Assembly (NCBI GenBank): GCA_030427905.1
Contig: JAUICL010000005.1
Coordinates: 1-64,000, forward strand
Direction of reading: 5' to 3'
DNA: 64,000 nt
Source of the DNA: Bacteroidia bacterium
Lineage (GTDB): Bacteria > Bacteroidota > Bacteroidia > Flavobacteriales_D > Cryomorphaceae
The notes below the pieces were generated by a model that saw only the letters and a list, made by a program, of their open reading frames with translations, did no database searches and was not told the origin of the DNA. Shown here one piece after another: positions 17,978 to 52,831 of this stretch; position 1 is the first letter of the stretch; every line of letters starts with the position of its first letter. The position numbers were made by a program, and so were the translations under genes.

Positions 17978-17980
17978 AAA

Positions 17981-18335
17981 AAGCTCAACGAACTGAATCG
18001 AAGAGCTTTAATTTAGTTCTGGTGCCCAGGACTGGATTCCCTTCGACACGTGCCAATGAGATACCCTAGAAATGGCACTTGCTCAGGACAGGCTTCTCAT
18101 CCAGTCCGCAATTACCGAAAAATAAAAAAAGCTCAACGAACTGAATCGAAGAGCTTTAACTTAATTATGGTGCCCAGGACTGGATTCCCTTCGACTCGTG
18201 CCAATATGATACCCTAGAAATGGCACTTGCTCAGGACAGGCTTCTCATCCAGTCCGCAATTACCGAAAAATAAAAAAAGCTCAACGAACTGAATCGAAGA
18301 GCTTTAACTTAAATATGGTGCCCAGGACTGGATTC
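17981..18335. repeat. 148-bp tandem repeat containing copies of the tRNA-Leu 3' end
   Basis: Two full units (17981-18128 and 18129-18276) and a partial third unit that runs into the real tRNA-Leu gene. Read on the minus strand, each unit holds the last 20 nt of the tRNA including CCA (18020-18039, 18168-18187 and, in the real gene, 18316-18335), then the tRNA terminator hairpin. The full units also contain an inverted copy of the T-arm half (GGACTGGAT at 18029 pairs with ATCCAGTCC at 18099) and an inner GTGCCA/TGGCAC repeat. The flanks CCCTTCGAC and CTCAGGACAGG resemble a palindromic repeat seen in many bacterial genomes (from memory). The two full units differ at only a few bases. Confidence 0.9.
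18272..18306 (-). terminator. Terminator of tRNA-Leu
   Basis: On the minus strand AAAGCTC ... GAGCTTT closes a hairpin followed by seven T residues, 10 bases after the tRNA CCA end. The same hairpin is present in each copy of the tandem repeat. Confidence 0.75.
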
Positions 18336-18401
18336 GAACCAGCACGAGCGTAGCTCACTACCCCCTCAAGATAGCGTGTCTACCAATTTCACCACCTGGG
18401 C
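18316..18401 (-). tRNA. tRNA-Leu (anticodon GAG), CCA encoded
   Basis: 86 nt. Acceptor stem GCCCAGG / CCTGGGC, D loop AAATTGGTAGA, anticodon stem CTATC / GGTAG with loop TTGAGGG (anticodon GAG), a long variable arm (class II, as expected for Leu), T loop TTCGAAT, discriminator A and encoded CCA. Confidence 0.95.
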
Positions 18402-52269: not shown

Positions 52270-52343
52270 GGCTCCGTAGCTTAACTGGATAGAGCACCGC
52301 ACTACGGATGCGGAGGTTCGGGGTTCGAATCCCTGCGGGGTCA
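52270..52343 (+). tRNA. tRNA-Arg (anticodon ACG)
   Basis: 74 nt, CCA not encoded. Acceptor GGCTCCG / CGGGGTC, D arm GCTT-AACTGGATA-GAGC, anticodon stem CCGCA / TGCGG with loop CTACGGA (anticodon ACG), variable loop AGGTT, T loop TTCGAAT, discriminator A. The ACG anticodon would be edited to ICG by TadA. Confidence 0.95.
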
Positions 52344-52353
52344 CAATCAAATC

Positions 52354-52383
52354 GCCCATCAGCCCAAGCTGATGGGCTTTTTT
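52354..52383 (+). terminator. Terminator of tRNA-Arg
   Basis: Perfect 10-bp stem GCCCATCAGC / GCTGATGGGC, loop CCAA, then six T residues. Its last bases are shared with the left arm of the large inverted repeat that follows, so the two structures exclude each other. Confidence 0.9.
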
Positions 52384-52831
52384 GTGCGCCAGTCTTTGAT
52401 TGAGTCTTGCTCAAAATCAAAGACGGCGCACAAAAAAGCAACCCCGAATCCGCGTAAGCGGTATCAGGGGCGATTTGATTGAAGTATTGAAGTAACCAAT
52501 GTTAGGGATCAGCCCGAACCCTTTCGGGCTAATCCCAAATCTGAACAATAGAGCCCAGTTTGATTGAGCCCCGCCCAAAATCAAAGACGGCGGCTACCGC
52601 GCGATTAGCTGCGAAGCGCATCGCGCGGTACTATTTGTCCATAAGTTGCTTAGAACCCTCCGTGGGAACTGCTTTCTTCTTGAACTGGATATATTTCTAA
52701 ATTGCTGTAAACCAAATCTACGCGACACACTCCACTTCACTGTTAACCGAACGGCAGCGGTGTGCGTAATTTACTCTTCCAAAAGATTTCAAATCACCCA
52801 CCAGTACTCGCTAATTCCATAGATTTGGCTC
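52376..52831. repeat. Nest of inverted repeats behind tRNA-Arg, otherwise gene-free
   Basis: A 64-bp inverted repeat (52376-52439) has arms GCTTTTTTGTGCGCC / GGCGCACAAAAAAGC and inner arms GTCTTTGATTGAG / CTC-AA-AATCAAAGAC. Next come AACCCCGAATCCGC (52440-52453), a reverse partial copy of the tRNA anticodon-to-T-arm region, and GGGCGATTTGATTG (52468-52481), the exact reverse complement of 52344-52357. More hairpins: CCCC..CCGC/GCGG..GGGG (52442-52470), AGCCCGAA/TTCGGGCT (52511-52530), TACCGCGCGAT/ATCGCGCGGTA (52595-52630). A second copy of the TTTGATTGAG...CAAAATCAAAGACGGCG unit sits at 52559-52592. From 52631 to the AraC gene I see nothing else. Confidence 0.8.

Follow-up and report, generated by a model that had tools for sequence, protein, structure and literature searches.

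The window analysed here is the 64,000-nucleotide stretch of contig JAUICL010000005.1, from a member of the Cryomorphaceae. Within it, a tRNA-Arg(acg) gene (52270–52344, plus strand; ARAGORN; Rfam tRNA, 61.4 bits) bears a structured tail at its 3' end. The next gene runs in the same direction as the tRNA, and a neighbouring protein is 61% identical to one of Cryomorpha ignava, the nearest named relative found. A single nested fold spans positions 52344–52481 of the plus strand, in which a closing stem, P1, encloses three hairpins termed A, B and C. The 5' strand of the closing stem, a1 (52344–52357, CAATCAAATCGCCC), starts immediately 3' of the tRNA and is the exact complement of the 3' strand, a2 (52468–52481); the covariance model described below matches 52345–52481. 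Hairpin A (52355–52376) is the intrinsic terminator hairpin of tRNA-Arg and is followed by a T-run (52378–52383). Hairpin B (52376–52439) has a base in which the T-run of terminator A pairs with an A-run, a long variable stem with a two-nucleotide purine bulge on its 3' side, and the apex GAGTCTTGCTC. Hairpin C (52442–52470), which includes AACCCCGAATCCGC, reads on the other strand as a hairpin followed by a T-run, that is, as an opposed terminator. The folding energy of 52340–52645 is −145.7 kcal/mol, compared with −80.8 ± 4.5 kcal/mol for 100 shuffled sequences (z = −14.3).

Further features lie to the right of the fold. Hairpin D (52505–52536, plus strand), of the form GGGATC-hairpin-AATCCC, mimics the 3' strand of the T-arm of tRNA-Arg. 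To its right, the inner part of hairpin B is present again (52559–52592, plus strand; 88% identical), probably left over from a partial tandem unit like those at other loci; the pair TTTGATTGAG..CAAAATCAAAG occurs at 52395 and again at 52559, with 0.00 occurrences expected. The palindrome TACCGCGCGAT..ATCGCGCGGTA (52593–52630, no strand assigned) is separate from the tRNA-bound element. It belongs to a REP-like family, ACCACGCGATACG..CTAATCGCGCGGTAGC, with approximately 20 further matches at E < 1 in the genome (G000 C1:184863, C9:43417, C3:274708 and others), unrelated to the tRNA element. A further palindrome family, of GACCCCGAAGGGGTC-like repeats, flanks a RAYT-type transposase gene elsewhere in the genome (L060, G000:C3:167786).

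The first-pass annotation had described this region as a tRNA followed by large hairpins and rearranged, inverted pieces of the tRNA. The hairpins are real; they are parts of one nested four-armed fold and not scrambled tRNA pieces. It had also proposed that the terminator and the 64-nucleotide hairpin fold exclusively, which is confirmed: the terminator arms (52349–52363 and 52368–52382) overlap the 15-bp arms of the 64-nucleotide hairpin (52376–52390 and 52425–52439), so that the two foldings share bases. The exact inverted copy of the 14 bp behind the tRNA is present as described (52344–52357 and 52468–52481), and its two strands form the stem that closes the fold; many tRNAs have this fold in unrelated sequence. 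The supposed inverted partial copy of the tRNA, AACCCCGAATCCGC (52440–52453), does not hold up. It matches the inverted tRNA segment only approximately, two bases being missing, and it forms the 5' strand of hairpin C. Nor is such a copy a general feature, as hairpin C is closer to its own inverted tRNA than to others in 28 of 79 elements. Read on the opposite strand, the region repeats the series strand, hairpin, T-run and long hairpin, which accounts for an order that a single inversion does not explain.

The same architecture recurs at other tRNA genes, as the first-pass annotation had suspected of something behind them. The genome carries 34 tRNAs, of which 33 trailers were tested. A strict fold test was passed by 9 of these 33 and by 19 of 66 trailers from relatives in the same family, compared with 2 of 495 shuffled sequences and 1 of 274 windows taken further downstream. 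A looser multiloop test was discarded, since 81 of 102 shuffles passed it. We also used a test that involves no folding and looks for a T-run followed by an A-run, for which 96 of 188 trailers qualify; the 188 include loci fetched through model matches, so this test addresses pairing and not frequency. In 51 of the 96 qualifying trailers, at least 8 of 10 of the bases enclosed by the two runs are complementary; the same holds for 1.5% of pairings made across loci and for 1 of 492 control windows. Of the 51, 26 show a1/a2 complementarity of at least 9 of 10, compared with 2.0%. The hairpin sequences themselves are wholly different between loci. A genome-wide search for the sequence unit, as the first-pass annotation had proposed, finds exact CAAAATCAAAGACGGC in two places, both at the tRNA-Arg locus; the unit is thus confined to this site and the architecture is not.

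A covariance model of 37 pairs was built from 25 elements and searched against whole genomes. The present genome has 24 matches at E up to 0.02, representing both strands of at least 12 sites (a lower bound, as 150 of 1194 candidates were scored). All 12 sites lie at tRNA 3' ends, distributed over 11 tRNAs, with a second copy at Arg(tcg); at tRNA-Cys, the site is the copy that comes after the duplicated tRNA end. Five weaker matches were also obtained, and the three inspected are ordinary intergenic sequence without a tRNA. Across the order, 53 of 120 genomes and 31 of 50 genera are matched at E up to 1e-4, and in a draw from the phylum 12 of 247 genomes, including two from other classes, are matched at E up to 1e-5. 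The 24 best loci outside the family include 20 that begin between −2 and +6 nucleotides from the tRNA end; two more lie 164–174 nucleotides behind a tRNA and two have no detected tRNA. A further 40 loci comprise 35 at a tRNA end and five that, judged by eye, come after what resembles a fragment of a tRNA 3' end or a copy of the start of a trailer. Of the phylum loci examined, 13 of 15 begin within 4 nucleotides of a tRNA end. In three distant genomes, the listed sites were all checked against the full set of tRNAs: 26 of the 27 are within 16 nucleotides of a tRNA end, and the 27th follows a tRNA-Met 3' fragment. This fragment, which lacks the 5' half of the gene and has the element attached (L287, G353:C1:998000–999400), may mark the distal end of an integrated island. 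From the tRNA end to the end of a2, the element measures 112–153 bp.

Pairing is maintained while the sequence is free to change. In an alignment of 59 model-aligned matches, 86.8% of cells pair and 31 of 37 pairs have changed on both sides; about eight of these matches are reverse-strand readings of loci already included, and fitting the alignment to the model biases it towards pairing. Cells with double changes number 491, compared with 167.5 ± 12 in shuffled sets, and the pairing score of 0.542 falls to 0.073–0.148 when the partners are slid by one column. Plain RNAalifold on a MAFFT alignment recovers 11 pairs only, because the stems are not aligned by column. The strands a1 and a2 agree at 8.7 of 10 positions within an element and at 4.0 between loci, and the arms of hairpin B at 8.5 and 3.4 of 10, respectively. 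The first seven nucleotides of hairpins A and C agree at 1.9 of 7 positions within an element and at 1.8 between loci. The first-pass annotation had suggested template switching, which predicts matching inverted halves. Copying of one half would also make A and C alike, and these are unrelated while the closing stem and the B arms pair; the comparison therefore favours selection on the folded strand over maintenance by template switching. Some details are conserved as well, including the purine bulge below the apex of B, its T-run/A-run base and an AGC..GCT apex (47 of 79 B hairpins, compared with 181 of 3024 control windows). Loops of the form CGNAG are frequent in C, as are CGAAAG-type loops in A. 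An apparent strand bias from wobble pairs was initially strong and proved to be due largely to the strand used for detection: the ratio of G-T to A-C is 33:5 in B and 18:3 in the closing stem for elements detected by sense-strand folding, and 23:12 and 10:14 for those detected by folding of the reverse strand.

The presence of the element depends on the tRNA. In the family set it is found at Arg(acg) in 6 of 6 cases, Val(tac) in 4 of 4, Gly(gcc) in 3 of 3 and Glu in 3 of 3, and at Met in 0 of 11 and Phe in 0 of 5. Over five genera, 32 of 99 tRNAs carry it, and the dependence on identity exceeds that in all of 10,000 permutations (p < 1e-4). Loci in other families include Lys and Met. Such a pattern suggests that particular tRNAs have kept the element for a long time and that families differ through its gain or loss.

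The right flank carries material from the tRNA itself. Hairpin D, in the general form GGATC-hairpin-AATCC behind a2, bears the T-arm 3' strand of the preceding tRNA. A match to the own tRNA is present at 35 of 78 elements, compared with 8.3% when the strands of other tRNAs are used and 3 of 71 cases further downstream, and an independent score ranks the own tRNA above others in 60 of 78 (p = 8e-9). The proposal that the spacer to the left of D copies the anticodon or variable part of the tRNA was unsupported (34 of 78). The last 16 nucleotides of the tRNA are found again behind 17 of 74 elements and 8 of 105 other trailers. At Arg(tcg), full units that include the tRNA 3' end are repeated with a period of 177; at a Gly locus, partial units that start at the apex of B are repeated with a period of 120. 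The first-pass annotation had called for inspection of all tRNA genes for inverted or tandem copies of their 3' ends. Within this genome, direct copies are found for 6 of 33 tRNAs and inverted copies for none of the 33 (last 16 nucleotides, up to two mismatches, within 1.4 kb downstream).

A tRNA-Leu(gag) gene in the window (18316–18401, minus strand) is flanked at 17980–18315 by tandem copies of its 3' end plus terminator, with a period of 148. A common process had been proposed for this locus and tRNA-Arg; the two share only the duplication of the 3' end, as the tRNA-Leu flank lacks the four-way fold. The T-arm copy within its units has a long insert (GGACTGGAT..GAATCCAGTCC) and differs from D at the Arg locus. 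Two other arrangements were seen near tRNA genes. Among small GIY-YIG nuclease genes in eight genomes, 11 of 27 cases have a tRNA on the same strand no more than 700 nucleotides upstream (places include L075, L101, L102 and L111); at L102, the gene sits between tRNA-Pro and a four-way element, with a copy of the tRNA 3' end preceding the element. Broken tRNA copies, in which a TCCCG..CGGGA-type hairpin stands in place of the anticodon arm, were noted by eye upstream of tRNA genes (L111:1–190, and the upstream flanks at C5:56907 and C3:9307 of this genome).

What might such a tail do? The plainest working idea that we infer is a terminator acting in both directions, as a hairpin plus T-run faces each way. 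A T-run of at least five directly follows hairpin A in 63 of 79 elements, giving a sense hairpin plus T-run, and an A-run of at least five directly precedes hairpin C in 64 of 79, giving the antisense equivalent; the mean folding energies are −8.6 kcal/mol for A on the sense strand and −6.8 kcal/mol for C on the antisense strand. A polymerase leaving the tRNA would end at A and its T-run, and one arriving from the opposite side would stop at C and the T-run that follows it on the other strand. Through the closing stem and B, both half-terminators would sit within one fold of the same strand, and read-through or invading transcripts would form a compact folded block. Hairpin D and the tandem copies would derive from duplication of the tRNA 3' end together with its tail. 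We tentatively prefer this reading, in which two opposed terminators within one selected fold would provide a two-way stop of transcription at tRNA ends, and regard it as quite possible though short of probable. The downstream gene is convergent at 29 of 44 element loci and 22 of 56 others (p = 0.0095); in a less selected family set, the excess is gone (12 of 23 and 24 of 59, p = 0.46). The closing stem, the 29-bp bulged hairpin B and D are not needed by a two-way stop, most tRNAs have no element, and if A terminates well, B, C and a2 would rarely be transcribed from the tRNA side.

Hairpin D and the 3'-end copies would be accounted for by an integrative origin, in which a tiny integrative or homing-like element is seated at the tRNA and the fold is the site recognised by an enzyme of the host or a helper. 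A unit starting at the tRNA 3' end (AATCC to the last base) would have entered the T-loop and restored the tRNA, the old 3' end would have been pushed to the right behind D, and tandem units would be repeated insertions. The own T-arm strand in D (35 of 78, compared with 8.3%), the full 3'-end copies (17 of 74, compared with 8 of 105), the 177-bp Arg(tcg) unit that includes the tRNA 3' end, and the GIY-YIG genes downstream of tRNAs (11 of 27), one of them between tRNA-Pro and an element, are all in line with such a course. However, an integrative origin explains neither the tRNA-specific retention, which looks inherited (32 of 99 tRNAs over five genera, p < 1e-4), nor the partial units, which begin at the apex of B and not at the tRNA end. 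The six flanking window proteins scanned include no integrase or reverse transcriptase, and the matches listed for 50,697 records of phages and 72,556 of plasmids are short and lie in the tRNA part or the first bases following it. We consider this origin unlikely, if still a serious contender. A functional RNA on the sense strand, either a structured trailer or a stable small RNA with a role in tRNA maturation or of its own, would fit the nested pairing with its heavy covariation, the conserved apex (47 of 79, compared with 181 of 3024) and the recurrent loops of A and C. It needs partial read-through of A, yet the fold lies behind a terminator, the wobble excess becomes unclear once elements are detected on the reverse strand, and no Rfam family matched; we judge it rather improbable.

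The fold might instead act as single-stranded DNA, either as a structure used in replication or repair or as a palindrome that a hairpin-binding transposase of the REP/RAYT type maintains. The perfect long palindromes and the bulged hairpin B suit this idea, and elements co-occur slightly with Y1_Tnp (33 shared genomes, 27 expected, p = 0.03). However, no Y1_Tnp match was obtained in 20 of the 53 genomes with elements, among them G003, G004 and G015, whose elements are strong; on this ground dependence on RAYT was rejected, and stable elements with maintained pairing are already suggested for lineages that lack a HUH transposase. The repeats beside the RAYT gene of this genome (L060) appear by eye to be of another kind. 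A role of the fold as single-stranded DNA or as a transposase-bound palindrome is, in our estimate, quite improbable. Palindromes can originate by template switching, and the right half of the fold mirrors a1 and B, as expected of a functionless inverted duplication of the terminator kept by strand-switch correction. Such a mutational by-product is very improbable: it is largely refuted by the lack of relation between A and C within an element, and persistence at the same kind of site throughout the phylum and the match of D to its own tRNA also speak against it. We return to the two-way terminator as the preferred reading.

Strong compensatory change marks this element, which recurs in at least one bacterial order and is also present in two genomes from other classes. 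It bears on how transcription of tRNA genes is bounded in Bacteroidota, on why tRNA 3' ends have duplicated pieces and on the use of tRNA genes by mobile DNA. No description of it was found in the openly searchable part of the full-text literature or in Rfam, and the four-armed tail of about 125 bases behind many Bacteroidota tRNA genes is seemingly an undescribed element. Read as a two-way stop, it would count as an unusual kind of bidirectional terminator; should P1, B and D prove to have a role of their own, it would form a new class. It is conceivable, if somewhat doubtful, that we are dealing with a new class of tRNA-bound element across Bacteroidota, in which a folded strand of RNA or DNA is built on the tRNA terminator with a T-arm mimic beside it, and a host factor duplicates or maintains it at particular tRNAs.

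Several known systems can be compared. Rfam 15 at the gathering score matched only the tRNA, in the window and at 12 element loci. Integron attC sites carry RYYYAAC and GTTRRRY boxes at the ends of a palindrome; such boxes occur in 1 of 79 elements and 0 of 71 controls, and identity with attC was rejected. No reverse transcriptase, the criterion for a retron, is encoded beside the fold among the six flanking window proteins. Integrative elements seated at tRNA genes duplicate the tRNA 3' end as attL and attR, and the element resembles them where a direct repeat of the tRNA 3' part flanks it, which is so for 17 of 74 elements and also for 8 of 105 other trailers. It differs in its length of 112–153 bp, in having no integrase gene (no recombinase gene is present among the same six proteins) and in tracking tRNA identity over genera. 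At the E. coli tyrT/rtT locus, 178-bp repeats form tandem units behind a tRNA, each beginning with the tRNA 3' end, much like the tandem units described here; tyrT/rtT is one locus and is not known to have a four-way fold, and the present element occurs at many tRNAs in many genomes.

REP, BIME and REPIN sequences are palindromes associated with RAYT transposases (PMC3733652, PMC6006769). The likeness lies in extragenic palindromes with bulged hairpins, and the element differs in being placed at tRNA ends only, in having no sequence conservation between copies and in occurring without RAYT. A Y1_Tnp (RAYT) gene is present in 33 of 53 element genomes. No dispersed copies with conserved sequence away from tRNAs were found in this genome, where 12 of 12 sites (E up to 0.02) are at tRNA ends. 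Bidirectional intrinsic terminators offer the likeness of a hairpin plus T-run in each direction. The element departs from them in having two separate hairpins within a closing stem that share a long hairpin, and in being attached to tRNA 3' ends with a mimic of the T-arm behind it.
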